From the IMG/VR virus record IMGVR_UViG_3300009620_000008, positions 1-45,290 of that record: DNA of 45,290 bases; one strand, written 5' to 3'. The position numbers were made by a program, and so were the translations under genes. Source of the stretch: a virus. Shown one piece after another: positions 9,793-29,209 of the stretch. A model generated the notes under the pieces. That model was not told where the DNA came from and did no database searches. It saw nothing but the letters and a program-made list of their open reading frames with translations. The first letter of the stretch is position 1. The number at the start of each line of letters is the position of its first letter.

Positions 9793-12700
9793 CGCTGATC
9801 AGCCGGGATGAAGTTGATGCTTATATCGAACACTTCCATTGGAAGGGGAGGGGCACCCGCAGTATCAAGAACAAACTTGACTAACTGCGCCCGTAGGCCC
9901 TTCAAGTGGAATTCAAGGAATCCACTGCTGGCATCGACTATCTCTGTAAAGACAGCGGTAGCGTCATCAAAGTCTACGTATGCGCGTACTCTGATATTGC
10001 CTGAGTTCTTTCCATGCGTGATGGTTACGCCATGCCAGAACTTCCTCTTGTCGGGAAGGCCAGCATCGAACCATCGAGAAGACCAACTAGACTCAAAGCC
10101 TCCAATATGAATTACATCCGTATTGGCTGACCCAGAAGGAGTTTCTGTTGGAGTAATGGTGGTTGTTCCACCAGACTCGGAGTAGGAGTGAATTACACCA
10201 GTACCAGTCTTCACTCCGGTCGAATCGACTGTGATGTACGGCACATCTGTCATATCACCCTTCAGGGTTAGGCCAGTAGCCGCAAGCGTAGTAGAGGGTG
10301 TACCAGATACTGCACCCAGTAGATCACCATACAGGGCTTCAGGGTTAGTCATCCGGTGGGTGCCACTGTCATATCTGACAACATAACCACCCGGAGTTCC
10401 CATGATCGGAACGGGTCTATCTGTTTCCAGATCATCCATCGAAGCCAGAAGATCTACTCCCTGCTCTACGGTATGAAGGCTGAAGACCATGTTCACGCCT
10501 TCGGGTGCCTGCCGTATCTCCAGGGCCATGATCTTGTCAGAACCAAGTGTGAATAAGATCTGCTCCCTACTGCGATGATACGCAGTACTAGATCTCTTCA
10601 GGTATGTCACATCCTGAGAGAGGAAGGTTGCCTCAATCGGGTGACTCAGATACCTAACACGATTCCCACCAGACCATGAGTACAGTCCCTTCTCGCTAAT
10701 GAAGTAGAGGACATTCTCGACTTCCATGAGGCTTGCATGGCTCACTGCCCCAATACCAGACTCAATACGATCAAGCAGGAAGGCCCCGGTAGCCGTGGTA
10801 TTACGGAACAGGCTGTCTCTCTTGAAGATCACTGCGTCCCCAAAGACAACCGATAGGCCAGATACGGGGTTGCCCTCGGGCGACTCAAGTACCAGTTCAT
10901 TCAGACCCGGCACTTCCCCCGGCTGGAATGCATCTGAATACCTAACTGTCAGAGGGGCCTCCTTGATCCCGCCATAGAACATCCTGACTTCCGAAGGTGC
11001 CAGGAATTCACAGACAGGCGGGGGATAGTTGTCAATCTCAAGAATCTTCTGTGCACCAAGCGATACTTGGCTCGGCTCCAGAAGAACCTCCCTAGTTAGA
11101 TTGTCCTCAACCTCCTTGGCGAGGAAATACAGACCGCCATCCGTAAGAGTCTTATACAGCCGCCGATACACATCACGATTCCTAAAGGGAGCAATAGGCA
11201 GATCAGACAGAACAAAAGGGTTAGAGGCGACAAGGGTCGATTCTTCATCAGTAGTTCCCTCCGAGTTGATGAATACTTCAGGCCCAGGATTGGATTCAAC
11301 CCCAGTATTTGGATCATAGAATGTCACTCGGAACTTATGCTTTCCAACTGGCTGGAGTTTATCTCCTGCCAAAGCCAGGGTTCCGGGGGGAGCCGAATCA
11401 TCTGAATCAGAATCCTTGTTGATCAACACTCCACTATCGGTATCAAACCTAAACGAGATAGTCGGCTTCCCTGTTGCCCCAGCCCCCGTAGACTCACTAG
11501 CAGTTGTTCCGAAGTCCAAAGGAGGAAGGCTATAGAGGTTGGTATCTGTCGGCCCACGGAATTTGGTTTGAGCGGCCATACAGTCTGCGGTACCACCACC
11601 AGTACCAGGGGCTAGATCAACGATCTTTATCGCCAGATCATCAACGTCACACTTCGCATTACGAAGGGCTAGGCCCTCGGTGATGCTCATACTGGTACCC
11701 AGCATATGGATGTGAGCGGTTGATTCAGTGGGATGATCGTCATCTCCAACAGGATTTGTCCCCTGCACCAAGAGTGTCGGAATTGCCGAAGTGTTCCCGG
11801 TAGCGTTGGCATGATGGCCAGGGACGGTAGCCGTATCCACCTTCCCAGTCGGGAAGTAGATTACATATTCCAGGTTGGTAGCACCTACCGTTGCGGCTCC
11901 ACCGCCATCAGCCCCAAGAGCGGGATCATCCGATAGCGTAAGGTCATTGCCGCCGTTTACATCAACTGAGTCAATATCTGCGCTTGTAGGGGTTGCTCCC
12001 CATCCTGCGTCATCTGTAACTCCTAGATCTTCAATCGCAAAGATTCTATTGAGATTAGGATTGCCAGCAGGACCAGTGATCTTCAGTAGCATTGCCCTGC
12101 TGGGGGCACAGAATGTACGGTTATTCCCTGTAGCGGCAATGAGTTCAGTACCTTCTGCGGCGGCAAGGTGAGGACTACTTCCTCCGGCCCCGTCGCCACC
12201 AGAGGTGGGAGTCTTGTGCCTGAATCTGCTAAGCCATCTGGGGAAATGAAAATTGTTAGTTTGATCTTGTGCGTGATATAGCCGCCTTGATCCAACAGTA
12301 GTCTGCTCTAAGAGATCAAGTTCCCCGCCAGATATGAAGACACTCCCGTTGTGATCTGGAGTACCGATACCCGGTGTTACATAGGGAGCAGATAGGAGTG
12401 CTCCAGTATTTCCCAGTTCGGTACTTCTACCCATATGTGTATTCGTCTGGTCAAAGCAACTATGGCAACCAGGGGCTACGAGGAAGGCATCAGCAGGGTT
12501 CTTTCCTTCCAAGGCCCAGCACCAGAGGCCATCACGATAGTTGCTACCTGACCCACGAGGAGCAGTAGCCCCGGTATCGCTGTACCAATAACGGCTGTCA
12601 TACTCCCAGCCACCAGATGTATCCATCTGGCAGGTACCCTGCTTCTTGAACTTGTATCGGAAGCGGAAGAAGTACCACTCATCAGTTGTAAAAATTCGAC

Positions 12701-15700
12701 CAGTAGTTTCGATAGATCTTTCTTTGCCCAACGATTCATCGAAGAACTTGAATCGAACCTTTCCTTCATTGAACATCTCAATGACATATGAAGAAGAGGT
12801 AAGGCTATCTCTGCGCTGGAGAATCGGGATTGTTTGGTCGCCATCAGTAACCAGATCGGTCCACCTGATGTAGCACATGAAGTCGAGCACCTTGTCTACA
12901 CCCACATCTAGAGTGGAGGTAGGAACGATGTCGATGTAATGATTACCTTCGAAGTGAAGGGCCTTCTCGTTATCAGTACCTGTAGCAGGAGTACCATCAC
13001 CATCCTGAATCAGCCGGATATCTGAGTAAGGAGTATTGGACTTCAGGCCAGCAATAGCCGCTTCTAGTTCAGCGGTTGTGGGCGTAGCACCAAGGGATGC
13101 TTCAAACAGCATGACCGATGTGCTATCTGCCTTCTGATAGGCGGTAGGTACGGGATAGAGCCGCGCCTCTGTAGCGTCAACAATAGAGGCAATTGTCCCC
13201 ACATACTCCTTCTGGCCCCAGGGGTTTGAGGAAGCCCTTCCTCTGGATGCCGCACCAACTACCAGCCACCCAACCATGTCCTCTGTAAGACCAGTAGCAG
13301 TATCCAACTCAGGGGTACCGCTATCCAACTTCACGCCAGTCAACAGTGTGTGGTATCCGGCTTGATGAATATCCTGTGCTACTGATTCCTGCGTGATATT
13401 CGGAGTAGTAAGCGGACCTTGAAGTCCAGCCTCTACTAGAGTCTCACCGTCATAGCGGAACGGCATGCTCTTCCCATTAGTCCCATACAGCCTGTTATGG
13501 AACATGGCGAAGGAATAAGGAGAGTCCTCGTCTGAGTATCTGACCCTGCCTAGCCCACGCTTGAGCGGAACCATATGCCTGGAAAGAGACGTAATGGTGT
13601 CAGCCTCGGCAGTAGGACTGAAGTCGAAGTAGATGTCCTTGCCTTCCTGCATATCAGCAGTGAAGAGAGTTCCAGTAGGCCCATCCCCAGTGATTACAGC
13701 CGGAAGGATATTCGCAGAGGTTGAATAGCCACCACCACTGGTGATGTCTAGCATCCTGAATCCACACATCAGCCCATCAAGAGTGTCCTTTCTGGTAATA
13801 GCAGGACTGCCTGCGGCTGATCCATATGCCCCAATGATCAGGCTCGGCTCAGGACTGAAGGTAGGAATGTCAGCACAGGCTAACCGTGATGTTTCCTTTT
13901 CAACTAGATCATGCCACACCCCATTAATAGCCACCTTGCCTGTGGCATTTACAGGGGTGGCATCTAGATGGAATACCAGATGAACCCACTCACCCGCCTT
14001 GACTGCCCTCTTCCCTGCCAAGAGCCTTATGAATTTGGGTGTGCCGCTATTATCAGCAAGATAGATCGTTGGCATCCCATTCCGAATGAACAGGTGATGA
14101 TTGATCTTTAGGTCACCAGTTGCATTCTGAATAACAGACGCAACAGTGTGAGTTCCATCCGTCTTGCTGAGATTGACCCATGCCTCCCACTGGTAGATCC
14201 CATCGTTAACAACTTGGAAACTCTTGCCAGACTTGGGGACTACCTCAATTCCATCCTCGATATAGCGATCTGTATATTCAGGCAGGAGATTGCGAATACG
14301 GTACGAGTATCCGCCGCTTGTGAGAGTCGGATGGTCAACATCCCACCGATCATCTACATGGTAAACCGTACCTCTACTGGCACTTATAAGTTGCCTGTCT
14401 CCTTCTGCGGTTTTGTATTGGCCAAGACCGTCTATGTGGGGCCTGGAGGCTGTTGTAAGCCCATCCCACCAGTACGGATGGAACTGCTCATACGGATGGC
14501 CAGGACGCGCTGGGAAGGAACACAGGCCCCACTCACCACCCAGTGGCCCCATGTCCGTGAAGACATTCGGTGTCTTCCCCATAGTGCTATCAGTTTCAAT
14601 GACTGCGTTGTATCTCGGATACCCAGAGTAGGACAGATCTGTAAAGGAGAGCATGATCGGGACTCTCGCCCTAACACCACTCCTAGTTCTGTTATTCCAG
14701 TTCCTAGATAAAGTCAGGCTATCAGCCGCGTGAGTGTCAACAACACGCACGGTGTCATATTCAATAGCAGGCTTATTGAGATCCTCTTCTACAAACTTGT
14801 CATCTCCAAAGACGATTGGCCATTTGGTGAGATTGATCTCGTCAGTTGGGAATTTACCACCGCTTGTGGAGACAACAGATGCGCTTCCATCTGTAAGATC
14901 TACAATCTTTGAGTCTCCGCCAAGATCCCTCCAGAAGGTGTCCTTATCAATCGTGGGCTCTTCAAGGATAATCAGTTCGTTGGTAGCGGCATTGTCGAGA
15001 GTACCCAGGCTCCAGCCAACCTCCTTCAGGGCAAGCACAGACGGGGCATGGCCAGGATTTCCATCAGCCTGCGGACGGCCACCAATAACCAGACGGCTCT
15101 TCAGGATGTCAAATGGATCTCTATCCGAAGGAGCCGTGTCGGTAGCAGTCAGGTCGAACCGAGAGGAGGGATCATCTGCTGTCCCATGCATATAGAAGGT
15201 TGTTACTTTGCCAACCGTTTTGAATCCCAGGTAAAAGGTAATCTCTTCGCCTGGGTTGTACAGAGCGGCAGTGACAGCCTCAGTGTTCACTTCTCCAGTG
15301 GCACTGACAAATGATCTGAGGAATAGCATCCGACTGCTGGTGGTCTGAGTAAGCCTCCCGCTAACAGACCCCTCAAAGAGAGGATTCCACGATCCATCGT
15401 CAGCCTCTGTATCCCATGAGAACAAGGTGTGCAGGTTGTCGTATGTTCCTGCCGCCTTCAGTCCTGCTGGGGTATTTCCTATAGACGTCTTTAGCCTGAC
15501 AAATGCATACCAGTCTTTGTCATTGGCAGGCCCACCAAGCAGATCGAGCAGATCCTTGGTCAGATTGGCTGTGCTGAAATCCAAGTACACACCAGTACTT
15601 GTTCCATCTAGGTAGAAGCCACCATCATCACTACGGGCTACAGCCCCAGGAGCCAAGAAGCCATGATCCTTTAGAGGACCAATATCATAAACAACGTTTC

Positions 15701-16934
15701 CACCGTCATCGTTGCAAGGCCAGTAAGCAACAAGTGCCTTCTTTTCGGCATCAGTGAGAAGATTATACGGGGATGCATCTGTCTGTTTCTCGTAGAGTTC
15801 TTTGCCCATGAGGGCCTGGATTCTGCTGGCACTATCAGCCAGTTCATGCCATAGCCTTACTTCACCAATGGTGGTCGAATGAAGTACGGGCCTCCATCTC
15901 GGCTGGATACGCACCTTATCGGTAGACTCAGGCCACGCGACAGTGAGGGTCGTGACATTCGATGTGTCATCCCAATTACTGATATATCGGAATAGCGGAT
16001 TATCAGCAGTATCTGTGTCATCCACCATCAGATAGTTCTCTAGAGACTCATCATCAATACCGTAGAGGTCAGCATCGATAATTGTCTCGGAGGCACTATC
16101 CAGCGGAGTGGTATCAGCACTGGTGATATTGAGCCCTTCGTCCTCTTGAAAGCCCCAAGTTGATCTATCCGTATAGTGTCTGGATGTCCTGGTTTGGCCG
16201 CCAGTATCCGGTACACGGAGCAGATACATAGCATTTTTGGGGCCACCAGCAGTCAGTTCTAGATTTGTAGTAAGCGGCAGAGTTCCATCAATGCCTGTGG
16301 CTTCCGAGGCATTTAGCGCAACTCCATTCAGGTAGATCTTGCTGTTGGAAGTAGAGGTCTTGTCAAATCGGGCAGATAGGTGGTAATCAACACCGGGACT
16401 CAATTTGGCAGAAGAGTCTCCCGTTCTCCAGAACTTCAGCCTTCTCTTCGAATTGTCCCACCACAGGAGGCAGGGGTATACCTCATCTGTATTGGTTGAA
16501 CTGAGATCCCTGGCATACCCAAGGCTCCACCAGAAGTGCTCGGTAGGCCCACCACCAGAGGAGAGAAGAGATACAAACTCTCCAGGCTTCAGCCCCGGAC
16601 CTTCAATCCTGAAGGAGATATCCCACTGCCATGACTTGGTAGAGTCAAATAGGGTCTGCTTGTAGGGCAGAACTACAAACCCACCCACGGGAGGTTGTGA
16701 CTCCAGCGGAGTCATGTTGTCCTTCCCGTTAGTCGTATCAACCCTAAGCCCCGCCGACTTGGGGGGATCACGGTTGATCTTGGTATGGCCTGATGCCGAC
16801 GCGATTGAGAGTTTGTCGAACTCTACATTCGATAGGTCTGATGCCGTATCGTCGGCAATGAGGAGAGGGTTTACCTCATCGTTCAGGCCGCCAGCAACAG
16901 GTCGAATCCTGAAGGTTTTGTACGGTGCGGCCAT
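9789..16934 (-). CDS. Giant tail-hub/appendage protein with multiple LamG-like domains, 2381 aa
   Basis: The N-terminus (GGLNDEVNPLLIADDTASDL) resembles the start of phage tail-hub or stabilisation proteins. At least four concanavalin/LamG-like units can be read, near residues 85-265, 470-660, 915-1065 and 1350-1430. Each has the typical motif of a Trp/Phe strand, a ...G.W..L.. strand and a YLNG/INGV-type strand (KIYLNGVAL, VAINGVWHDL). Between about 2010 and 2105 is a propeller-like segment with VVFGDAVIFKRDSLFR and GLYSWSGGNRVRYLS, as seen in tail-plug or stabilisation proteins. The C-terminus (about 2280-2381) has RKFWHGVTITHG. LamG folds commonly bind glycans, so host-surface recognition is a reasonable inference. 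Few tail-hub proteins are this long. The start lies 3 nt after the preceding stop. Confidence 0.75.
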   Translation of the reverse strand: MAAPYKTFRIRPVAGGLNDEVNPLLIADDTASDLSNVEFDKLSIASASGHTKINRDPPKSAGLRVDTTNGKDNMTPLESQPPVGGFVVLPYKQTLFDSTKSWQWDISFRIEGPGLKPGEFVSLLSSGGGPTEHFWWSLGYARDLSSTNTDEVYPCLLWWDNSKRRLKFWRTGDSSAKLSPGVDYHLSARFDKTSTSNSKIYLNGVALNASEATGIDGTLPLTTNLELTAGGPKNAMYLLRVPDTGGQTRTSRHYTDRSTWGFQEDEGLNITSADTTPLDSASETIIDADLYGIDDESLENYLMVDDTDTADNPLFRYISNWDDTSNVTTLTVAWPESTDKVRIQPRWRPVLHSTTIGEVRLWHELADSASRIQALMGKELYEKQTDASPYNLLTDAEKKALVAYWPCNDDGGNVVYDIGPLKDHGFLAPGAVARSDDGGFYLDGTSTGVYLDFSTANLTKDLLDLLGGPANDKDWYAFVRLKTSIGNTPAGLKAAGTYDNLHTLFSWDTEADDGSWNPLFEGSVSGRLTQTTSSRMLFLRSFVSATGEVNTEAVTAALYNPGEEITFYLGFKTVGKVTTFYMHGTADDPSSRFDLTATDTAPSDRDPFDILKSRLVIGGRPQADGNPGHAPSVLALKEVGWSLGTLDNAATNELIILEEPTIDKDTFWRDLGGDSKIVDLTDGSASVVSTSGGKFPTDEINLTKWPIVFGDDKFVEEDLNKPAIEYDTVRVVDTHAADSLTLSRNWNNRTRSGVRARVPIMLSFTDLSYSGYPRYNAVIETDSTMGKTPNVFTDMGPLGGEWGLCSFPARPGHPYEQFHPYWWDGLTTASRPHIDGLGQYKTAEGDRQLISASRGTVYHVDDRWDVDHPTLTSGGYSYRIRNLLPEYTDRYIEDGIEVVPKSGKSFQVVNDGIYQWEAWVNLSKTDGTHTVASVIQNATGDLKINHHLFIRNGMPTIYLADNSGTPKFIRLLAGKRAVKAGEWVHLVFHLDATPVNATGKVAINGVWHDLVEKETSRLACADIPTFSPEPSLIIGAYGSAAGSPAITRKDTLDGLMCGFRMLDITSGGGYSTSANILPAVITGDGPTGTLFTADMQEGKDIYFDFSPTAEADTITSLSRHMVPLKRGLGRVRYSDEDSPYSFAMFHNRLYGTNGKSMPFRYDGETLVEAGLQGPLTTPNITQESVAQDIHQAGYHTLLTGVKLDSGTPELDTATGLTEDMVGWLVVGAASRGRASSNPWGQKEYVGTIASIVDATEARLYPVPTAYQKADSTSVMLFEASLGATPTTAELEAAIAGLKSNTPYSDIRLIQDGDGTPATGTDNEKALHFEGNHYIDIVPTSTLDVGVDKVLDFMCYIRWTDLVTDGDQTIPILQRRDSLTSSSYVIEMFNEGKVRFKFFDESLGKERSIETTGRIFTTDEWYFFRFRYKFKKQGTCQMDTSGGWEYDSRYWYSDTGATAPRGSGSNYRDGLWCWALEGKNPADAFLVAPGCHSCFDQTNTHMGRSTELGNTGALLSAPYVTPGIGTPDHNGSVFISGGELDLLEQTTVGSRRLYHAQDQTNNFHFPRWLSRFRHKTPTSGGDGAGGSSPHLAAAEGTELIAATGNNRTFCAPSRAMLLKITGPAGNPNLNRIFAIEDLGVTDDAGWGATPTSADIDSVDVNGGNDLTLSDDPALGADGGGAATVGATNLEYVIYFPTGKVDTATVPGHHANATGNTSAIPTLLVQGTNPVGDDDHPTESTAHIHMLGTSMSITEGLALRNAKCDVDDLAIKIVDLAPGTGGGTADCMAAQTKFRGPTDTNLYSLPPLDFGTTASESTGAGATGKPTISFRFDTDSGVLINKDSDSDDSAPPGTLALAGDKLQPVGKHKFRVTFYDPNTGVESNPGPEVFINSEGTTDEESTLVASNPFVLSDLPIAPFRNRDVYRRLYKTLTDGGLYFLAKEVEDNLTREVLLEPSQVSLGAQKILEIDNYPPPVCEFLAPSEVRMFYGGIKEAPLTVRYSDAFQPGEVPGLNELVLESPEGNPVSGLSVVFGDAVIFKRDSLFRNTTATGAFLLDRIESGIGAVSHASLMEVENVLYFISEKGLYSWSGGNRVRYLSHPIEATFLSQDVTYLKRSSTAYHRSREQILFTLGSDKIMALEIRQAPEGVNMVFSLHTVEQGVDLLASMDDLETDRPVPIMGTPGGYVVRYDSGTHRMTNPEALYGDLLGAVSGTPSTTLAATGLTLKGDMTDVPYITVDSTGVKTGTGVIHSYSESGGTTTITPTETPSGSANTDVIHIGGFESSWSSRWFDAGLPDKRKFWHGVTITHGKNSGNIRVRAYVDFDDATAVFTEIVDASSGFLEFHLKGLRAQLVKFVLDTAGAPPLPMEVFDISINFIPADQR

Positions 16935-17381: not shown

Positions 17382-17540
17382 CTACCTGCCACCAGCCCTG
17401 CTCTTGCGCTTGCGACCGCCACCCTTTTTGGATGCATAGGGAACGAAGCCCTTCGGCTTACCCTTTGAGCCCTTGCCCTTGCCTGCGGTCTTGGACTTCT
17501 TAGTGACGGGCTTGCGCCTCTTCTTTGACTTCTTTGCCAT
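17382..17540 (-). CDS. Protamine/histone-H1-like basic protein, 52 aa
   Basis: The chosen start is ATG 17540, which overlaps the stop of the connector gene as TAATG. A longer frame reaching 17681 would only read through that gene out of frame. The product begins MAKKSKKRRKPV and ends GGRKRKSRAGGR. It contains no Asp or Glu, about half its residues are Lys or Arg, and Gly/Ser/Pro fill the spaces between. This is the composition of H1 tails, protamines and DNA-condensing phage core peptides. It sits among connector and tail genes, so it is probably made late and may be packaged. DNA or RNA binding is inferred from charge alone. No structured domain is expected. Confidence 0.75.
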   Translation of the reverse strand: MAKKSKKRRKPVTKKSKTAGKGKGSKGKPKGFVPYASKKGGGRKRKSRAGGR

Positions 17541-18418
17541 TATCGATCCTCTGTGTAGTTCACATATCGAGGTGCTTGATCTTGCCGTCTCTCCTGGGTG
17601 TTTACAAGAGTCCGAGAGAGTTCGGAAGATACCTGGGAAATTACCTGCTTCTGAGTCACATTGCCTTCCTTGTCGAGACACCTGTTGGCGGCGCGGTAGG
17701 CGAGTACCTCATGCATTGATTCCTCAAAGAGGGGGACACTCCACAGAACATCGGAGTTATCCAGGCCTGTTGCTGATTCCACTACACAAGTAGTAGAAGT
17801 AGATCCCGTACAGAAGAACAGGGTTCCACCTGATGCATCTGTAGCATTTTGGAATCTGGTATTCCGCATAGCATCAGTCAATCCAGGCCATGCGGGGGTC
17901 AGGCCAGAGGCCACAACAGTAGGCGTGAAGGTCAGGGAGGTCAGGCTAGATACGGTTACACCCACAAGCGGTGGCCATCTCCGCTGAAACCAGATACGCC
18001 ACTGAGTTGCATCATCAATACCATCCTTGTCGATGTTCAAATAGAGATGGCGATCCCCTCCGAAGAACCATGTATCACCCCTGAGGAACTGTCTCCTAGC
18101 ATGGGCATGGGTATTCAGGTGCAGGGGATTTACGGAAGATCCAGGGGTATCCTCTTGTAGGCCGTTCTCTACCCTAACGATCTTCGTAACGTAAGGCTCC
18201 AGGGTGACCTTGGTTATGCCGCCGCTAGCCGAGGCATATGTCAGTTCGCTTAGAAGTTTACTATCTAAGCCAGTGGTCGAATCTGTCTGAGAGAGATCAC
18301 CCTGAAGTTGACTATAGGTACGATTGATGTGGCGATAGATCTCATCATTGCTCCATATCCGAGCCGTAGGCTCTTCAATGATCTCTCGGACCTGGGCATG
18401 GATCTCACTCAGATTCAT
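17540..18418 (-). CDS. Head-tail connector/adaptor candidate, 292 aa
   Basis: The N-terminal helix VREIIEEPTARIWSNDEIYRHINRTY resembles phage adaptor proteins, in which a helical N-terminus docks on the portal ring and asks for W-S-N/D-x-E-I-x-x-x-I-N. The middle is beta-rich (TFTPTVVASGL, GTLFFCTGS), and the C-terminal helix contains FEESMHEVLAYRAANRCLDKEGN, a common closing element of these adaptors. The start ATG overlaps the preceding stop as TGATG. The gene lies after the capsid and paralogue block and before the tail genes, as expected for a connector. Confidence 0.65.
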   Translation of the reverse strand: MNLSEIHAQVREIIEEPTARIWSNDEIYRHINRTYSQLQGDLSQTDSTTGLDSKLLSELTYASASGGITKVTLEPYVTKIVRVENGLQEDTPGSSVNPLHLNTHAHARRQFLRGDTWFFGGDRHLYLNIDKDGIDDATQWRIWFQRRWPPLVGVTVSSLTSLTFTPTVVASGLTPAWPGLTDAMRNTRFQNATDASGGTLFFCTGSTSTTCVVESATGLDNSDVLWSVPLFEESMHEVLAYRAANRCLDKEGNVTQKQVISQVSSELSRTLVNTQERRQDQAPRYVNYTEDR

Positions 18419-18945
18419 CAGGCGTTACAGTTCTTGGTCCAGTAGGTGCCATCATCGTTGATGCCAACCTCTCCTTCTGTTGCATGATCCATCATGTGAG
18501 AGGCCTCCTTCTTTGTTTCGGAGACTGCGATCATATGCTCAGCCATGTCCATATTGGTGCGATGGCTGAAGTAGGGACGCTTCTTGATCATGTGCCTGAG
18601 TTGGGCATAGCCCTCAAGGATCTCTTCCTTCCTGGCTTGTTCTTGCTGTGCCCTAATTGCCTCGCCAGGGGCATCAAGTTTCTCTAGTTCCTTTGCCGCC
18701 TGACGGGCTGTGATATCCCTACCGAATCTGCGCCACACATCAATCTTCTTTAGATACTCAATGGTGCGAGTATCGAACGGCCTGAACCCACCATCAGGCT
18801 CAGTGATATTCATCACATGCAGAAACGTTCCATTCCTCGCCCTACGCATGACCTGGAATCTGTCGATTCTCTTGTTCCAGATGACATCCAGAGCACGATC
18901 ATATCTCTGGAGTTTCGACAGATAACGATGATCTACTGCTACCAC
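18418..18945 (-). CDS. Hypothetical late protein, 175 aa
   Basis: It starts with GTG at 18945, which shares its first G with the upstream TAG stop (TAGTG). Translation is therefore likely coupled, because no good ribosome-binding site is seen. The protein is highly charged and helical: MRRARNGTF early, then AAKELEKLDAPGEAIRAQQEQARKEEI in the middle. It is His/Met-rich near the end (MDMAEHMIAVSET, ASHMMDHA). No known domain is recognised. Position between the paralogue block and the adaptor suggests a virion-assembly or structural role. Confidence 0.6.
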   Translation of the reverse strand: MVAVDHRYLSKLQRYDRALDVIWNKRIDRFQVMRRARNGTFLHVMNITEPDGGFRPFDTRTIEYLKKIDVWRRFGRDITARQAAKELEKLDAPGEAIRAQQEQARKEEILEGYAQLRHMIKKRPYFSHRTNMDMAEHMIAVSETKKEASHMMDHATEGEVGINDDGTYWTKNCNA

Positions 18946-19589
18946 TACTTGGGTGTCCCAGGCAGGAAGTTAGTGAATACGCAGTAGGTAGCGGCAGTAA
19001 ACTGACCCGACGATGCAACACCGTAGATGGTGCTATTGGCAACATCAATTCGGACATGCGTATCCGGGGTCATTACTGTGCCATCACTCTCGATCACACT
19101 CAGAATGTCAGAGGTATCATCAGGCTTGTAACCAGTGGTACCTGCAACCATACGGGTATAGGCCAGTTTGACGGGCAAACCTACGGCACTAATCTCAGCC
19201 AGGGTAGTACCGATATTCAAAGTACTGCCACTACCATCCTTTGCTGTCGGCATTATCTTTGAAACCTTGTCGAAAGCCTTGACCGTAACCCCATCGGTTG
19301 AGGCTGTGGCAGATACAGTTTCAGTGATCTCTTTGCGAAACTGGTCTTCACCAGTGATTTCAACAGTAATCGTACTGTCTCCACCACCAGCAAGGCCCAC
19401 GGACACTGACTGGGGAGATCCAGCAGGCCATGACGCATTATTACTCAGGTCAAGCGCGGTATCAGCAGTCACGGCAGACATGGCTCCAGTGAAGTAACGG
19501 GTTGCCGCGTTTACCTTGGTAATGATGATCGGGCTGGCATTCGGATGAGGCCAGCGCGTGTGATCTAGATTCTTAGTTTTGATGCCCAT
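18945..19589 (-). CDS. Tandem structural paralogue 5, 214 aa
   Basis: Member of a five-gene tandem family (18945-22228). It keeps the family landmarks in order: WPHPN near residue 14, TGEDQFRKEITE, AVGLPVKL and VANSTIYGV. An SD-like AAGGA lies 8 nt before the ATG at 19589, so this copy has its own ribosome site; an 11-nt gap separates it from paralogue 4. The product is beta-rich with many Thr/Ala/Val/Gly residues. A virion decoration, head-fibre or tail-ring role fits the position directly downstream of the capsid gene, but no family name can be assigned. Confidence 0.75.
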   Translation of the reverse strand: MGIKTKNLDHTRWPHPNASPIIITKVNAATRYFTGAMSAVTADTALDLSNNASWPAGSPQSVSVGLAGGGDSTITVEITGEDQFRKEITETVSATASTDGVTVKAFDKVSKIMPTAKDGSGSTLNIGTTLAEISAVGLPVKLAYTRMVAGTTGYKPDDTSDILSVIESDGTVMTPDTHVRIDVANSTIYGVASSGQFTAATYCVFTNFLPGTPK

Positions 19590-19600
19590 TGGTAGGTTCC

Positions 19601-20335
19601 TTACATGTCCCGTTTGAAGGGGACTCTCATCTTGAGAAACAGTGTACGGCCAGTCAGGCCAGTAGCGTCGATTAGATAGATAGAGTTATTCTCGGTATCG
19701 ATCTTCCAGTTCGGATTCACTGCCATGTTACTTCCGTCCAGAACTTCAAGGATTTCGGCAGTAGGCTCAGGAGTACTGGCTCCACCGATACCCGGCTCAC
19801 TAAGTCTGAACGGTGTGCCATACCGTACATTAGACATAGCACCCGGCCCCTCACCCGCCTGATATGGATTCTGATCACCAGAGTGAATTCCAATATTGAA
19901 CGCACCACTACCGATTGTGGTGACTTCGAGCCATTCCAGCCTAAAGACCTTTCTAAATGGCTTGATTCCCCAGGTATCACACCCAGCAGGATTCACCTTT
20001 AGAGTGGAAGGAGAGACATTTTGAATCGGAATGTCTTCGGTTTGGGGGTTGCCGAACTGATCCTCTCCATGGAACCTAGCCAACGTATCGATGGCCCCTG
20101 ATACGGACCCAACGCCATCGATAAAAATGGACTGCGGAGTGAGGTGGCATGTAGTCCCTTGGTTCATCTCAACAATTCCACCAGCAACAGCCCCTTCACC
20201 ATCGGTGAATAGGGAGCCCGTACTGTGATAATTGTTTATCCCACCGGTTATCGTGCTGGAGAGTACCAGCGGGACCATCACCGTATCAGGATGAGGGTAC
20301 TGGTTCCGATCAATGCTTCTAGACCGTAGACCCAT
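19601..20335 (-). CDS. Tandem structural paralogue 4, 244 aa
   Basis: The longest of the five paralogues. Landmarks: YPHPD, HGEDQFGNPQTE, VRYGTPFRL and TENNSIYLI. Compared with its siblings it has an extra loop around DQNPYQAGEGPGAMS. The ATG overlaps the stop of paralogue 3 as TAATG. Its function is unknown; the shared fold suggests a common structural unit that may form a hetero-oligomer with the siblings. Confidence 0.75.
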   Translation of the reverse strand: MGLRSRSIDRNQYPHPDTVMVPLVLSSTITGGINNYHSTGSLFTDGEGAVAGGIVEMNQGTTCHLTPQSIFIDGVGSVSGAIDTLARFHGEDQFGNPQTEDIPIQNVSPSTLKVNPAGCDTWGIKPFRKVFRLEWLEVTTIGSGAFNIGIHSGDQNPYQAGEGPGAMSNVRYGTPFRLSEPGIGGASTPEPTAEILEVLDGSNMAVNPNWKIDTENNSIYLIDATGLTGRTLFLKMRVPFKRDM

Positions 20336-20985
20336 TAGACTTCTCTTCCCCTGGGGAAGTTGAACTTGACCAGCCTGTGAGGATTGGCCGTAATTTCCCC
20401 CAGATTGTAGATGGACGAATTCTCAGCATCAACGCGCCAGTCGGTATCGAAGGTTGCATCAAGGTAGACCACGCCCCTAATCTCCACATCGGGATATTCC
20501 GTACTTCCCTCTATACCAACATTGACATCCCGCAGTTTGAAGGGCAGGCCATATCGAGCATTGCCATTTCTGAGATGACCGATGGACATCGTTTTTGATG
20601 ATCCTGCGGCGGCATTGGTTACCGTTTCAATCCTTCTAACCATACGAAAGATCTTTGTTCCAGTTACCGCAACGCCATCCCATAGCCCAGAAAAGGTTTC
20701 AGAGACAGGCTCTCCAAACTGATTCTCTCCATAAACCTTGATGCTCCACGCCGCATCAGCGTCATCTTCGGGAGTAATAGTAAGGTTCTGAGGGGTACCC
20801 CTACTTACCTGAGGAAGCCAAGTGGCATTCCAAATACCAGGAACACCACCAGGGGTCATGGTATTTGTTTCTTGGGCAATTCCATTGGTGAATCTCCCTG
20901 TACCGCTCATGCAGTAAATCAGATGAAGTCCGGCATTCGGATGGAGATAGCCGGGAAGATCAATTGCCCTTGTTCGAATAGCCAT
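20335..20985 (-). CDS. Tandem structural paralogue 3, 216 aa
   Basis: Landmarks: YLHPN near residue 14, YGENQFGEPVSE, ARYGLPFKL and AENSSIYNL. It opens MAIRTRAIDL, nearly the same as paralogue 2 (MAIRLQDFD) and paralogue 4 (MGLRSRSID). The start overlaps the previous stop as TAATG and its stop overlaps the next start. Proposed as a virion surface or tail component from its place between the capsid and connector genes. Confidence 0.75.
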   Translation of the reverse strand: MAIRTRAIDLPGYLHPNAGLHLIYCMSGTGRFTNGIAQETNTMTPGGVPGIWNATWLPQVSRGTPQNLTITPEDDADAAWSIKVYGENQFGEPVSETFSGLWDGVAVTGTKIFRMVRRIETVTNAAAGSSKTMSIGHLRNGNARYGLPFKLRDVNVGIEGSTEYPDVEIRGVVYLDATFDTDWRVDAENSSIYNLGEITANPHRLVKFNFPRGREV

Positions 20986-21602
20986 TATCTTGTAGTCCTA
21001 CTAGGCCTGAGTTGGAAGAAGCAGGAGTGTAATCCCGCTGTCCATGTTAAGTTATCGAGAACCGTACTGGTCTTGGGATCAACGTCAGTTGGCCCGACAT
21101 TGCCACCACCATATTCATTATTGATCTCGATCAATTCGGCATTATTGGTAGACCATGTATACCCAGACTGATTGATCTTGATGGGCAGGCCAACCCTCTG
21201 GCCAGACCCCAAGACGAAGCCCACATCAAACCCATCCGCATGAGGACTACCAGGAAGGGAGGTAATCGTCATGCTAGTAAGCACACTAAAGGCGTTCTTG
21301 GTAAAGGTTGCCGCTGTTGCCGCCTGAAAAGTAAGACTCTCTTCAATCGGCTCTTGGAACTGATTCAGCCCCTTCACGATGAATCCTCCTCCAGCCGTAG
21401 TATCAGCGGTATTGCTAATAATCTGGAGTGATCTGGCAGAACCAATCATCCTGTTCTTCAGGAGCGCCACATCTCCAACAGCAAATGTAGCCCCATCAAC
21501 AAAGTGATTGGTCACAGGGGCCGCTAGGCAGAAGTGAATCAATGACCCCGTATTGGGATGAGGGTATGTATTCGGATCAAAATCTTGAAGTCTGATAGCC
21601 AT
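20985..21602 (-). CDS. Tandem structural paralogue 2, 205 aa
   Basis: Landmarks: YPHPN, KGLNQFQEPIEE and QRVGLPIKI. The fourth landmark (S-S/T-I-Y) is degraded here to a TSTVLDNLTW segment. The start ATG at 21602 overlaps the stop of paralogue 1 as TAATG. It is beta-rich and low in charge. It diverges strongly from its siblings outside the motifs, so the duplication is old. Confidence 0.75.
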   Translation of the reverse strand: MAIRLQDFDPNTYPHPNTGSLIHFCLAAPVTNHFVDGATFAVGDVALLKNRMIGSARSLQIISNTADTTAGGGFIVKGLNQFQEPIEESLTFQAATAATFTKNAFSVLTSMTITSLPGSPHADGFDVGFVLGSGQRVGLPIKINQSGYTWSTNNAELIEINNEYGGGNVGPTDVDPKTSTVLDNLTWTAGLHSCFFQLRPSRTTR

Positions 21603-22228
21603 TAGAAGCCACTTAGTTTTTGAAGATTGACGAACACCCAGTTCAGTTCAGCACTCCACGCGCCCGGAGCGGTATTCCGAATACTGCTGTATTTGGCAGA
21701 AAGAGTCATATCTGTTTTCGCATGAACAACGCCATCATAGCGGGTAACTGCGATAATCTCATCCCCAAAGGATTCACTACTAAACTTGAAGGGAAGACCG
21801 ATAGGGATCTGATCCCCATGGTTGCTTAGATTGATAGTTCCATTGCCCGCTCCAGTATCAACAATGTCATCTATGGTGACCCTGTGAATCTCTGTCCAAG
21901 TCATCATCCCCATATGACTGCCCTGATTGGTCGTATAACTGAACCTCTTTGTGGCATCCAGTTGATCGCCAAACTGATCACGACCTTCTACTGTAATAGT
22001 AAATGATCTTACAGAGCCACTGTCTGTATCCGGAGCATTGACCTGAAGGGTACCGGGAGAGCCAAGAATCCTATTCGTCAGAAGCGGCAATTCTTGTCCG
22101 TTGGTCAGGCTGGCCAGAGTGGTCGAAGCCATGAAGTACTCCGCCTTGGCTACAGGCAGAAGAGGGATGGCCGTCACATTCGGATGCGGCCAGTGATCCT
22201 TGTCCCAGTCACCTACTTTGACGGTCAT
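21602..22228 (-). CDS. Tandem structural paralogue 1, 208 aa
   Basis: First of the five in transcription order. It begins MTVKVGDWDKDHWPHPN and keeps EGRDQFGDQLD, IPIGLPFKF and KYSSIRN. A good SD (GAGGA) lies 6 nt before the ATG, after a 91-nt gap with two hairpins behind the capsid gene, so this is where ribosomes probably enter the paralogue block. The family is not one I recognise. Confidence 0.75.
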   Translation of the reverse strand: MTVKVGDWDKDHWPHPNVTAIPLLPVAKAEYFMASTTLASLTNGQELPLLTNRILGSPGTLQVNAPDTDSGSVRSFTITVEGRDQFGDQLDATKRFSYTTNQGSHMGMMTWTEIHRVTIDDIVDTGAGNGTINLSNHGDQIPIGLPFKFSSESFGDEIIAVTRYDGVVHAKTDMTLSAKYSSIRNTAPGAWSAELNWVFVNLQKLSGF

Positions 22229-22319
22229 TTCCAGTCCTCATAGTTTGCCCCCCCGTAGGGGATACTGCGGAAACAGAACTAGGGGGAGTTGTACACCCCC
22301 CCTAATTCCTAATCAATAC
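22229..22319 (-). other. Intergenic gap between capsid and paralogue block
   Basis: No gene. Read on the minus strand it holds two G/C-tract hairpins: one with a 7-bp TAGGGGG/CCCCCTA stem (22280-22304) and one short CCCC-TAC-GGGG element (about 22247-22262). The SD for paralogue 1 follows. The first stem is followed only by GTTCTGTTT, so it would be a weak terminator; it may act as an attenuator or mRNA-stabilising structure. Confidence 0.55.
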
Positions 22320-23721: not shown

Positions 23722-24525
23722 CTAGTGGCCACCCATCAAACCTTGCAGATATTCCACTGCGGCTTTATGAGTGCCACCCTTTTTCATATCTTCGGCAGAG
23801 AGGTTAGGAATGTCAGGGGTAGAACCCGCCGCCGCTCCTCCACTCTCTGTGCCAAACCTGGCTCTATCCCGAAGGCCTGCTTCAATTTGATCAGCGGTTG
23901 GATTCTCGATGATCTTGTTGAAGGTAGATTCAAGGTGCTTGACCAAGATCTCTAAGTCCTGGGACGGGTCGCGGGCCATCTCTTGGAAGAGATTGTTCAC
24001 TGCGTGAGCAGATGACCTAGATAGGACTGGACTCTGTGAGACTGCACCTTCGACCTTAGTTCTGAGTGTTTCCAACTGAGAGTGCTGGAGGCTTTCCTGT
24101 TGCTGGGCCATCAGAGACTTCAACTGGTTTTCCAATTGCATGACCTTCAGATCGGACGAGTTGCCACTCGGCATCTCGCCATCAAAATCGTTAGAGTCAA
24201 TCATTGTTTCACCAGTAATAATTCTCTGAATTGCCGCCGCCTTATCAGGGTTACCTTCCAAGAACGATTGGAATTCATCTAGGCCTGTGAGTTGGGTAGA
24301 TCGCTCTTCCAAGAGCCTTCTCTGTTCCGACAACTCAGCAGTCTTCTTTTCGTAGTCATAGCCCTTCTGTGCCAGTTCTGTAACCTTGTCAAGTGTCAGG
24401 TCGATATCCTCGCCCCTCCACTTAATGCTTACAGACTGACTGCCAGGGTCGATGTTCTCTTGAGTCGCGGACTCGGTACCCGCTTGGTTAGCGGCCTCGT
24501 CCCCGGTGCTTTCGATACTTGTCAT
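23722..24525 (-). CDS. Scaffolding protein candidate, 267 aa
   Basis: An acidic, Gln/Glu/Ser-rich, helical protein lies between the portal and capsid genes, the standard scaffold position. It has coiled-coil-like segments (YDYEKKTAELSEQRRLLEER; LKVMQLENQLKSLMAQQQE) and a His/Gly-tipped C-terminus ending LQGLMGGH. ATG 24525 is preferred over the adjacent GTG at 24528 because AAGGA sits 5 nt before the ATG. I see no serine-protease motif, so a separate prohead protease is not suggested by this gene. Confidence 0.8.
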   Translation of the reverse strand: MTSIESTGDEAANQAGTESATQENIDPGSQSVSIKWRGEDIDLTLDKVTELAQKGYDYEKKTAELSEQRRLLEERSTQLTGLDEFQSFLEGNPDKAAAIQRIITGETMIDSNDFDGEMPSGNSSDLKVMQLENQLKSLMAQQQESLQHSQLETLRTKVEGAVSQSPVLSRSSAHAVNNLFQEMARDPSQDLEILVKHLESTFNKIIENPTADQIEAGLRDRARFGTESGGAAAGSTPDIPNLSAEDMKKGGTHKAAVEYLQGLMGGH

Positions 24526-24559
24526 CACGATCCTTTGTATTAATTACACGAATAAGCCT

Positions 24560-26593
24560 TCACTGTGAAGGCCCTTCCTCTTGACGCTTGGGCCTACTTC
24601 CGGTGCCAGTTTCACCGGGAGCCCCGCGCTGTGCCTGCATCATCTCCATCTGAGCCTGATACTGCTGTTGGAGAATCTGATTGTGCTGTGCCACATGACT
24701 GTCAATCAACTGCTGATGTTCAGGAGTGAGAGCGTCATAGTCGGCAGAGTTCTGTAGATCCGAGTGTGTCTTCACATGGATCTGATGTTCGTGGAATTCC
24801 CTGACCAGCGGCAACTGAGGAGGCATGGACTTCATAAGGAAGTTCTCCTTCTCTGCTACTCGGTAGTGCTGAGCCATTGAATGAGTAGCACCCTGGACAT
24901 CGAACAATTCGAAGCCTTCCAAGATTGCCTTCATATGCTCGGGATTTTGGGGATTTAAGAATCCAGCACCCATCAGGTCCAAGAGGTCTTGCCTTCTCGT
25001 TGCTGTTGATTCAGTACCAGATGAGGGCACAACTCTCACATCGAAGTTGTTGCGTATGTCAGCGCCCTTCCACATCTGAACCTGCCATGAGTAGTCGCTG
25101 GATAGCGTCTTCACACTTCTGGGAACATCCCAGTTGACCGACGCCAATTTCAGCATTAGCCGGGAACTAGCCTTCACCGAGTCAATGATCCTGTTTCTGA
25201 ACAGGCTCATTACTGAGATGTCCTGCTCCATTAGCATCTGGATGGCCGTTCCACTCCTCACAGATGAAGGAGCCCGAGCCTGGGTAACGTCACTCTGGGC
25301 CGCAATAACCTGCATCTCTTTGAAGAGATCGGTTACGTGGGCCGTGATGTACGCGGGTAGGGGTGAGGGCGGGACTACCTGAGGAGGGAGTGAGGTGCCA
25401 TTGTAGAAAATGACTTCCCCAGGCTCGGAAGTTATGGCTGTTTCTGCAATGCCTGCTCCACGCGGCACCAGCCATTTGGGCTTAGACATCAAGTTCTTCG
25501 ACTCGATGATCTGTGATCTTGTGATGTTGTACTCTCGCTGTGGCCCCATCAGGTTCTCAACGAGTCCCATACCCCAGAAGCGGTTGGGCATCTCGATGTA
25601 GTTCATGTGAATATAGGGCGACCATACGCCAAGGTCTGTGGCGTAATGGTTGCTCCTAGATTCCAGAACTGTCCCACCCGCCATGACCGCATAGCGGCCC
25701 TTCGGATAATCAGGACTGGGCTTATCCCACATCTCATAGACGATGGCCGTATCCGTGGCTTTATTAGGATCACCTCCCCAGTAGTTCTTTCCGATCAGGG
25801 ATTTGAGCCTGCGCTCCATCCAACTGTGAGGCTTGCCCGCCTCAGCGGTAACAGTCTTGCCTCTCTTTGGCCATCTATCTTTGATATATGAGAGAGGGCG
25901 TTCTGTTGCCTCTATAATCCATGTAGCCGACCCGAACCCTGGAGAAGCGTCCGTAGCATCGGTGTACATCTTGAAGGGAGATACTGATTCCACAGCGATC
26001 TCACCCAGATTCTGAGCGAGCAGAGAAGCCCGACCGCGAATGGCTTCATTCCTTACCTCTCCAACTTCCGACTCTTCGATAATGTCCCTGTCATCCAGGG
26101 AAACTACATCTCCAACTGTGGGTCCAGCGGTGATATCCCAATGAACCTTCAGGAATCCAGTTCCAGTGAGCGTAGCCCACTTGACGGCTCTCCTGAGTTC
26201 CTCATCAAACTCTGTTATTTCAAACAGATGCTCGATGATGCGGGTGCCCACCCTTGCACCGCCCATATCCTCACGGTCTGGAGTCTTAGGAGCGACAACT
26301 ACTCTAGGCCTATCTGCTGTTACTTTAGATACAGCCCTCTGCACCATGGGCAGAATCAGATTGGCCGTATATCTGGCCCGCCAGGGCGGGGCAGGCGGCT
26401 CCTCTAGGGAATTAGAAGTACTATTCCATTTGACATATTGATGGCCAGAGAAGAATGAGACGCATTCAAACCAGATGCGCTCCAGCGACATCTTGAATGC
26501 ATTCCGACCCTCATCGCCCTGACGAGTTTCGAAATCTCTGAGTAGATCTTTGTCTTGCTCAGATAGTCTTACAGGCTTTATAGCCGCAGGCAT
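24560..26593 (-). CDS. Portal protein, 677 aa
   Basis: Forms the dodecameric DNA-entry vertex of the head and docks the terminase. Portal-like features include an N-terminal helical wing, PPWRARYTANLILPMVQRAVSK, the segment NRFWGMGLVENLMGPQREYN (a conserved portal block), KWLVPRGAG, and SSVRSGTAIQMLMEQDISVMS ahead of a long C-terminal helix. The C-terminal tail is Gln/Met-rich. Length and layout resemble P22/T7-type portals of short-tailed phages. The start overlaps the previous stop as TGATG. Confidence 0.92.
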   Translation of the reverse strand: MPAAIKPVRLSEQDKDLLRDFETRQGDEGRNAFKMSLERIWFECVSFFSGHQYVKWNSTSNSLEEPPAPPWRARYTANLILPMVQRAVSKVTADRPRVVVAPKTPDREDMGGARVGTRIIEHLFEITEFDEELRRAVKWATLTGTGFLKVHWDITAGPTVGDVVSLDDRDIIEESEVGEVRNEAIRGRASLLAQNLGEIAVESVSPFKMYTDATDASPGFGSATWIIEATERPLSYIKDRWPKRGKTVTAEAGKPHSWMERRLKSLIGKNYWGGDPNKATDTAIVYEMWDKPSPDYPKGRYAVMAGGTVLESRSNHYATDLGVWSPYIHMNYIEMPNRFWGMGLVENLMGPQREYNITRSQIIESKNLMSKPKWLVPRGAGIAETAITSEPGEVIFYNGTSLPPQVVPPSPLPAYITAHVTDLFKEMQVIAAQSDVTQARAPSSVRSGTAIQMLMEQDISVMSLFRNRIIDSVKASSRLMLKLASVNWDVPRSVKTLSSDYSWQVQMWKGADIRNNFDVRVVPSSGTESTATRRQDLLDLMGAGFLNPQNPEHMKAILEGFELFDVQGATHSMAQHYRVAEKENFLMKSMPPQLPLVREFHEHQIHVKTHSDLQNSADYDALTPEHQQLIDSHVAQHNQILQQQYQAQMEMMQAQRGAPGETGTGSRPKRQEEGPSQ

Positions 26594-27018: not shown

Positions 27019-27284
27019 TCTTGGTTCCTCATAAGATTGCTGATGTATTCAGCCCCTGCGATCTGCGATTCTGTCTCATCAGATCTTGACCATGTTTGAT
27101 CCCCATTCTGGGGCATAGCCGCACTGCTGAGAGCATAAGTAGCCACCGCCTGTTGTGATGCCATGGCCATGATCTTCGTTTCTAGCCTATCCAACTGTCC
27201 GAGAAGCGCCCGCTTCTCGAATCCTTGGACCAGCGCCTGAACGGTGATCACAATACCCAGGACTACGATGATTGTTGATTCCAT
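27015..27284 (-). CDS. Small membrane-anchored helical protein, 89 aa
   Basis: An N-terminal hydrophobic segment (STIIVVLGIVITVQALV) forms one likely membrane helix. A charged amphipathic coil (EKRALLGQLDRLETKIMAMA) and a polar tail follow. The start overlaps the terminase stop as TAATG. The topology resembles small holin-like or inner-membrane phage proteins, but the location next to terminase is unusual for a lysis gene. Function unknown. Confidence 0.65.
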   Translation of the reverse strand: MESTIIVVLGIVITVQALVQGFEKRALLGQLDRLETKIMAMASQQAVATYALSSAAMPQNGDQTWSRSDETESQIAGAEYISNLMRNQE

Positions 27285-28006
27285 TACCAGTCATTCCCAT
27301 ACTTATAGTTCGTCTCAGCGATGAGTTTATGCTCATCTTCAAATCGATCAGATACCATATCCCATACCCAGGAGTCAACATTCCTGTCTGGATTCACCTT
27401 CGCAGGGGGATGCTCAAAGAAGACTGCTTCTCTTGCCTGAAGAGCAATCATCCATGCCATAACCCTATCATCGGTAGATCCTTTCCTGGCTTCAGCAACC
27501 CCGCGCTCTGTGACCATAAAGGTCCGCATCTCACGGAGAAGTTCTTCTGAGTTGATCTTCGCATCGCCTTCCCTGAGCACCTGCCTAGCGTGATCAAGCA
27601 ATAAGGCCTTTGTCTTTGTAGTGGTCTGCCAACCAATACGGTTCACTGGCTTGTGCTGTACCTGATCGAATGCCTTCCTCGTATACAGGTGCCAGTAACC
27701 CAGATCTCTGATTCTGTTGACCACGGCCAGACCGTGCATATTGATCTCTACTGCTACGAAAGCGTTGTCATAAAATTCTCCTAGTTTTACAACCTCTTCC
27801 GCAAAGAGATAGGGATCGATTCGGTCTGTCCACTCTGCGACTTGCTCCATTGTTTCAACGTCAATGACACAAGCAACTGAGTTGTCTCCGAATCCAAACC
27901 CTTCAGCCGTATCGACCCCCATGGCGTAGCGATGTCCAGTAACCGGGGTAGCCCACAATCGCAACGGTCCTCGGGGGTTTGGGTCATAGAGCAGTTCGTC
28001 GGTCAT
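27284..28006 (-). CDS. terL (C-terminal part): Terminase large subunit, nuclease half, 240 aa
   Basis: Carries the RNase-H-fold nuclease that cuts concatemeric DNA during packaging. Visible motifs: YAMGVDTAEGFGFGD (D32), FVAVEINMHG (E87) and GSTDDRVMAWMIAL (D179/D180), which together form the expected two-metal acidic site. The ATG at 28006 overlaps the stop of the preceding 50-aa gene as ATGA. The N-terminal residues DPNPRGPLRLWATPV match the linker that normally follows the ATPase domain, so this is the second half of an otherwise ordinary TerL. An AGG/GTA-rich upstream frame without an ATG continues a little further. Confidence 0.9.
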   Translation of the reverse strand: MTDELLYDPNPRGPLRLWATPVTGHRYAMGVDTAEGFGFGDNSVACVIDVETMEQVAEWTDRIDPYLFAEEVVKLGEFYDNAFVAVEINMHGLAVVNRIRDLGYWHLYTRKAFDQVQHKPVNRIGWQTTTKTKALLLDHARQVLREGDAKINSEELLREMRTFMVTERGVAEARKGSTDDRVMAWMIALQAREAVFFEHPPAKVNPDRNVDSWVWDMVSDRFEDEHKLIAETNYKYGNDW

Positions 28007-28155
28007 ACGCTTACGGCGCTGGGCTTGCTCTTCGGCACACTCATCTTGCCAGCAGTAAGCACTGCGGCGGCATGCAGTAGTGCACCGTCATCTACATTGC
28101 ATCGCCTGATCTCTTTTACAGACTTCCTGAGTCTCAAAAAGTAGGTCCACATCAT
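28003..28155 (-). CDS. Small ORF between the two terminase halves, 50 aa
   Basis: Begins with two ATG codons (28155, 28152) after an AAGGA placed 8 nt upstream. Its TGA overlaps the ATG of the nuclease-half gene. The product is MMWTYFLRLRKSVKEIRRCN followed by DDGALLHAAAVLTAG and a basic tail. It starts hydrophobic/aromatic and then becomes amphipathic. It has no recognised domain. It could tether the two halves, be an independent small protein, or be the remnant of an element that split terL. Confidence 0.6.
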   Translation of the reverse strand: MMWTYFLRLRKSVKEIRRCNVDDGALLHAAAVLTAGKMSVPKSKPSAVSV

Positions 28156-28165
28156 TTCAACATCC

Positions 28166-29209
28166 TTATCCATTGTCGATAACTCCGTTTACTAGGTTGC
28201 CCCGTGCGGGGTCCGTACATCCTCCATTGAGGATGTTATCAATAAGTTCCAATTGGAATGCTGGCCGACCGGAAGCCTGGAATGCCTCGTGGGGCGTTGC
28301 AGGATACTCCTGCATGAACTGCACCATGTTGCCATTGCATTCGTTTGCGATGGTGGACCGCCGCCACGCTATCTGGCCTGCGGACCACCCAAAAAGTTCA
28401 CAACCTTCCAGTTCAGAATCATCAAGAGAGGACGTGATCCTATCCGTGTCCTCCTCTGATAGTCCAAAAGAATACTCAGGGTTCTCATGCCACGGCAGGA
28501 AGACTGGCGTGAAATCGTTTGTCCCGTCTATCGCTGACCACCACATATCGTGGAAGTACCCTCCAACCCCGTTGGCCGTACTTTCTAGGATTACCATCGT
28601 CTCTGGAACCTTAGGCACCGACTGCATAAGCCCCAGCATGGTCTGCTCAGGGCTAGGCCAGAATGCTACCTCGCTGGCGTGTACATACTGGTTCGTCATG
28701 CCACGACCGGCATCCTTGTTCTCGGCGCTCTCGATTCTCATCTTGGAGTTCATCGGAGGAGCCAGAACGATCTCTCGCCTGTTGGAATAGTCGCACTTCG
28801 GTTGGAACGGCAAGTTCTCAAAGAAGAACCTGGACATGGCGAACAGTTCAGCCGCACTGTCACCCTTATGGGCAATGACCAAGGCATTCCCGTTCTCCTG
28901 TGTAATCGTGCGTTCGAACAGCCGAGCCTCAGACCAAGTGCTAACTCCCTGCTGTCTTGCCTTCAAGACGATCAATCTAACAGGACGATTCTGAGCCTTG
29001 AGGTCCGTCGTGACCACGTTCAGTCTCTCCTGAACGGTGTTCCACCTCAGATCCTCAACCTCCTGCTTCTTGGTCTTGATCTTCAGAAGTGCCTCGCACC
29101 ACCTCTCTGGTGCCCCAAGGGCCTCACTCAGAGCCCTTAGAGCATCGTCATCCGTCACTACGTCCCCACCACTCAGGGACTCGACGGCCTTCGTAAGGAA
29201 GTCAGACAC
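28166..29209 (-). CDS. terL (N-terminal part): Terminase large subunit, ATPase half, 347 aa
   Basis: The packaging motor ATPase. Walker A KARQQGVST is at residues 83-91, Walker B QYVHASEVAFW at 174-184 (E180), and the coupling motif ESTANG at 209-214. The segment EYPATPHEAFQASGRPAF follows, after which intact TerLs enter the nuclease linker. Here the frame stops after LVNGVIDNG. The start is GTG (29209), placed inside a small hairpin formed with the preceding bases. The ATPase and nuclease halves together (about 587 aa) make a normal-sized terminase. Confidence 0.92.
   Translation of the reverse strand: MSDFLTKAVESLSGGDVVTDDDALRALSEALGAPERWCEALLKIKTKKQEVEDLRWNTVQERLNVVTTDLKAQNRPVRLIVLKARQQGVSTWSEARLFERTITQENGNALVIAHKGDSAAELFAMSRFFFENLPFQPKCDYSNRREIVLAPPMNSKMRIESAENKDAGRGMTNQYVHASEVAFWPSPEQTMLGLMQSVPKVPETMVILESTANGVGGYFHDMWWSAIDGTNDFTPVFLPWHENPEYSFGLSEEDTDRITSSLDDSELEGCELFGWSAGQIAWRRSTIANECNGNMVQFMQEYPATPHEAFQASGRPAFQLELIDNILNGGCTDPARGNLVNGVIDNG

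Follow-up and report, generated by a model that had tools for sequence, protein, structure and literature searches.

The question raised by this locus is why a phage should carry, immediately behind the gene for its major capsid protein (MCP), a run of five small genes that look like strongly diverged versions of one another. The window, that is, the whole stretch of DNA analysed here, comprises 45,290 nucleotides (IMG/VR virus record IMGVR_UViG_3300009620_000008) and belongs to a short-tailed, metagenome-derived phage. The first-pass annotation had described five adjacent paralogous genes of 205-244 aa at 18945-22228, and open reading frames are found at exactly these coordinates, all on the minus strand (Table 1). 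The reading that we favor, with a probability of about 0.6, is that a post-capsid gene family has expanded from one member to five in this lineage, that its products are probably decoration or head-fibre proteins on the outside of the capsid, and that the five copies have diverged into a division of labour.

Table 1. Coordinates of the array, here called p1 to p5, and of the features around it in the window
Feature	Position	Strand	Description
Portal, P22/SU10 type	24560..26593	minus	PF16510 E 4.4e-22, PF23899 E 1.7e-17
Scaffold-like protein	23722..24528	minus	phrog_3927 E 0.0043; lies between the portal and MCP genes
Major capsid protein, 462 aa	22320..23708	minus	phrog_14242 major head protein E 6.8e-65; related MCPs in Shocker and others
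15-bp RNA hairpin, MCP-p1 gap	22275..22309	minus	RNA fold
p1	21602..22228	minus	208 aa; first array member, directly after MCP
p2	20985..21602	minus	205 aa; one-base overlap (TAATG) of its start with the p1 stop
p3	20335..20985	minus	216 aa; one-base overlap (TAATG) of its start with the p2 stop
p4	19601..20335	minus	244 aa, extra loops; one-base overlap (TAATG) of its start with the p3 stop
p5	18945..19589	minus	214 aa; 11-base gap to p4; one-base overlap of its stop with the next gene
175-aa protein, non-family, directly after array	18418..18945	minus	phrog_17018 E 5e-4, unknown function
292-aa protein, adaptor position	17540..18418	minus	no Pfam/PHROG match; adaptor role presumed from position

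The array lies within an apparent structural module, transcribed in the order terminase (two ORFs, 29209-27284), small genes, portal, scaffold-like gene, MCP and p1-p5, followed by genes for proteins of 175, 292 and 147 aa and then for a protein of 2381 aa. The overlapping starts and stops attributed to the array are present at three of its four internal junctions, the exception being p4/p5. Likewise, three of the four landmarks said to recur in order, xHP[ND], Gx[ND]QF and G[LT]Px[KR], do so in all five proteins and in none of 20,000 shuffled versions, while the fourth, S-x-I-Y, is confined to p3, p4 and p5, with SSIR at its position in p1 and no match in p2. Among the 7,519 ORFs searched, just one other has the same three landmarks in order, and it is a member of the family described below.

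That the five are indeed paralogues is borne out by their sequences, which are 20-33% identical in pairs, with BLASTP E values from 9e-18 (p3/p5) to 0.008 (p1/p4). All ten pairs score far above shuffled sequences in global alignment (z 6.7 to 16.6, against 100 shuffles), whereas comparison of p1-p5 with the 175-, 292- and 147-aa neighbours, the MCP and the scaffold gave z values of about -1.4 to 2.3, indicating no similarity. The three neighbours were accordingly rejected as hidden sixth members of the array. The array is also no assembly duplicate, since its copies share merely 20-33% identity.

Used singly, the window's array proteins found no match in Pfam, PHROGs, PDB, the named phages, IMG/VR or GTDB contigs; weak matches in RR1-A and Epa33 were rejected, being sited in DNA-metabolism regions, and a DNA pattern taken from the N-terminal part matched only the reverse strand of portal genes. 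Relatives were instead fetched from IMG/VR by a degenerate DNA pattern for G-x-D-Q-F-G-x-P-x-x-E, which yielded 30 loci, including four full-length relatives (E 3e-17 to 8e-10), and a second search, seeded with three full-length relatives, led to a set of 15 contigs of uncultured phages (L111 and L131-L144). A profile of these 15 outside sequences, run against the 195 ORFs of the window, picked out exactly the five array genes (E 9.6e-13 for p1, 1.6e-10 for p2, 8.2e-14 for p3, 6.6e-5 for p4 and 3.7e-8 for p5), the next ORF having an E value of 0.04. As the profile was built without any window sequence, this is the strongest single test of the family, with the caveat that the pattern that fetched the first relatives came from window motifs. 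The markers of the wider family are GxDQFG and GLPx[KR]; xHP[ND] marks the window array and is present in just one of the 15 outside members. Searches of the named phages with proteins from L111, L106, L134 and L121 gave no relatives, and matches to Pfam families PapG_C and Big_3_3, each in one family member, were below cut-off and were set aside. The array thus leads to a family that has no name and no Pfam or PHROG match, here seen in 16 uncultured phages and always at a conserved site within the head module. Three further contigs encode larger proteins (321-420 aa) with a diverged GxDQFG...GLP core (L121 2753-4000, L107 11893-12858 and L129 13190-14452), the one in L121 lying directly after the MCP gene (phrog_9953 major head protein).

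All 15 outside contigs carry the family gene in a single copy over the available record, several of these records being fragments; the window, with five copies, stands apart from them, and the description of its long post-capsid tandem array as unusual is well founded. No other tandem set of five was found in the genomes examined or in the literature searched. The MCPs of the window and the 15 outside contigs belong to one superfamily, joined by a shared iterated profile, and the family gene follows the MCP gene directly in L111, L135 and L144, the other twelve having one gene of 108-144 aa in between. In L144 the family gene comes between the MCP gene and that of an SU10-type adaptor (PF24175, E 1.6e-14), which places the family in the post-capsid slot as something distinct from the adaptor; no family member matches the PF24175 profile. 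The outside members thus resemble those of the array in length, in the GxDQFG and GLPxK core, in post-MCP place and in predicted beta fold, and differ from them in being single-copy in each genome and in lacking, in 14 of 15 cases, the xHP[ND] start motif. Some outside phages have FkbM methyltransferase and/or glycosyltransferase genes (Pfam) behind the family gene (L131 10706-13674, L134 10704-11363, L111 1915-2712), as if a part of the virion were glycosylated. Just downstream of the capsid cluster, chaperonin genes are seen in L134 (12582-14593) and L143 (11940-13804), which have both GroES (Cpn10) and GroEL (Cpn60), and in L140 (11927-12184), which has GroES.

In a maximum-likelihood tree of the 20 members, the five window genes fall on one branch (support 97/94), which suggests that one ancestral post-capsid gene was duplicated in the window lineage. 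Tandem neighbours also group together in the tree, as (p1,p2) and (p5,(p3,p4)). On the inferred root, the simplest account is four tandem duplications starting from one gene; with the root placed the other way, loss from a larger ancestral set would be a less parsimonious alternative, as it needs more events. The AU tests, made on sets of four paralogues, are uninformative on the five-gene branch. Branches are long, such that the distance between one paralogue and another nearly equals that between the window set and L111. Despite divergence that is nearly family-wide, all five frames are intact and the core motifs are kept, which argues that every copy is in use.

The window's MCP and portal have distant counterparts (about 20-32% identity) in Microbacterium phage Shocker, in Arthrobacter phages such as Jasmine, in Cellulosimicrobium phage DS1 and in the Manatee Spring podoviruses. 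None of these relatives has such an array, and the genes behind their MCPs are annotated as spikes, hydrolases, esterases or hypothetical proteins. More broadly, the family was found in none of 83 loci selected solely by a related MCP (HMM), 71 of which extend at least 1.5 kb downstream, and the genes behind the MCP in these family-less loci matched the family with an hhalign probability of at most 3%. Absence from these 83 loci indicates that the family is dispensable for the core particle of this capsid type; since capsid relatives with a portal and downstream tail genes lack it, the family is, as judged from sequence comparison, an accessory and not a core part of the neck. Two features expected of a decoration protein are thereby seen in p1-p5, namely a gene in the head module beside the MCP and absence from relatives with the same type of MCP.

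AlphaFold2 models were made of p1 and p3; with the same five array sequences as input, the two are not fully independent. Both models are all beta with a similar strand order (pLDDT 64.8 and pTM 0.61 for p1; 50.6 and 0.51 for p3), and the GxDQF motif is placed at a turn between two long strands. An all-beta fold is thus predicted for the family, from models of low to moderate confidence. The best match of both models in a viral structure library is A0A0F7L2V0 (E 2.7e-9 for p1, 1.3e-4 for p3), with A0A6J5SB67 next in both lists and A0A6J5RIF5 and A0A3G8F5U8 near the top of both. These BFVD entries are uncharacterised viral proteins of about 200-270 aa, and are fold neighbours matched by model alone. 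Among solved structures (PDB), known decoration proteins included, there was no significant match to the family by sequence or, with models of this confidence, by fold; the IBDV coat, CBM22 and picornavirus coats appeared among the fold matches of p1, were not significant and were discarded.

In considering what the five proteins might do, one of the nearest known systems is phage SU10 (Kuravirus), which has the same slot occupied by a small beta protein between an MCP and an SU10-type adaptor, the window's portal being of the P22/SU10 type as well. The SU10 protein, gp10, is Ig-like and was likened by its authors to gp10 of Epsilon15, a minor capsid protein, and to the N-terminal domain of the phi29 head fibre (PMC9509320). 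It differs from the array in being present in one copy, 132 aa long and BIG2-like, and hhalign gives no sequence relation to the family (probability 0.06%). The head resolved by cryo-EM did not show gp10 (PMC9509320), so that the analogy both supports the reading and counsels caution. The failure to see gp10 in the mature head would be in keeping with p1-p5 serving as assembly or maturation factors outside the finished virion, as would the GroEL and GroES genes near the cluster in some phages of the family; however, a morphogenesis helper would not normally be expected as five diverged copies with an all-beta fold, no family member has a catalytic motif or a chaperone match, and we regard such a role as very improbable.

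The suggestions made for the array at the outset included a hetero-oligomeric head decoration, a collar, a tail ring and a five-part fibre set. The head decoration or fibre agrees with the constant location of the gene and with the prediction of a beta-rich fold; the collar and the tail ring fare badly. Beta-rich proteins do build rings in many phage necks, and the array lies between the MCP and the downstream tail genes, where a collar, neck or tail ring might be encoded. We nevertheless consider a ring of p1-p5 quite unlikely, given that the L144 gene sits between the MCP and an adaptor of its own, that an FkbM methyltransferase gene, and not neck genes, comes next after the family gene in L131 and L134, and that the family is missing in related phages possessing portal and tail genes. 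More plausible, if still doubtful, is that the five are separate head fibres, anchored to the capsid and each binding its own receptor or glycan, forming a broad-adhesion set and not a mixed oligomer. This would accord with the annotation of the post-MCP slot in related phages as tail spike, esterase, glycoside hydrolase or lipase, with weak matches of the p1 model to jelly-roll and CBM-like folds, and with a weak match to the head fiber protein phrog_5711 in one of 20 family members (E 0.19). Those fold matches are, however, without significance, no fibre-like repeat or coiled coil is seen, and the core motifs GxDQFG and GLPxK are conserved along the whole length of the proteins, which have no obvious separate, variable tip domain.

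The capsid-surface accessory reading draws together the head-module position, the predicted beta fold, the absence from capsid relatives and the precedent of SU10; the location on the capsid and the division of labour among p1-p5 are what we infer from these. The family protein would most likely bind the exterior of the head as a decoration or head fibre, and on the capsid the diverged copies might take up separate sites or combine into mixed oligomers, or they might present distinct binding surfaces. A hetero-oligomer and a five-part set would both be compatible with the translational coupling of the five genes and with their having been kept for so long. In a stricter form of the proposal, p1-p5 would make up an obligate hetero-oligomeric capsid layer or spike with each copy at a fixed quasi-equivalent position; we hold this to be rather unlikely. 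If true, it would mean that a tailed phage uses separate genes, and not one flexible decoration protein, to encode the various environments within its lattice. Decoration proteins are usually encoded by one or two genes per phage. More generally, if the proteins are on the capsid, a fivefold set of diverged copies kept for so long would offer a natural case in which to study how a symmetric shell becomes divided into different parts by gene duplication.

Partial parallels exist for such site selection. The capsid of Agrobacterium phage Milano carries the minor capsid protein gp10 and the linking proteins LP1 and LP2, and two of its decorating proteins are alike in their N-terminal strand and lie at quasi-equivalent sites (PMC10491603). 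Milano, likened here by description, thus has several small capsid-dressing proteins, but three of them and no five-gene tandem. The Dec protein of phage L, an OB-fold decoration protein on a P22-like capsid, selects between quasi-equivalent sites (PMC6449081); it would share with the family a functional class only, Dec being an OB-fold present as one species and the family having no sequence match in PDB.

Expression of the five genes would probably be coupled on a single transcript, with a candidate attenuating hairpin ahead of p1. The p1 start lies 91 bases past the MCP gene, and the RNA fold of this 91-nt gap has a z of -2.57, with 2 of 200 shuffles folding equally well; in a scan for terminator-like elements, the total for the region was not clearly above that of shuffles. 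The hairpin is thus a candidate attenuator or RNA 3'-end element, which may keep the dosage of p1-p5 below that of the MCP.

Elsewhere in the window, the terminase large subunit is split (27284-29209) into an ATPase part at 28166-29209 (phrog_2) and a nuclease part at 27284-28006 (phrog_24361, phrog_38407), with a 56-aa ORF in between. The same split is seen in L129 (4591-5676 and 5673-6497), and ctLwi270 (L004) has two CDS annotated as terminase large subunit, so that the division looks like a trait of the lineage and not an error. In the 2381-aa protein (9789-16934), a region around residues 916-1006 is laminin-G/concanavalin-like and another, around residues 1991-2107, gives a weak virion-structural match; the protein may be a nozzle-like component of the tail that carries large lectin-like insertions. 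A 576-aa protein at 43539-45269 matches phrog_1017 (2.6e-7; unknown function) and, weakly and below cut-off, NADAR, and may possibly have a role related to NAD or ADP-ribose.
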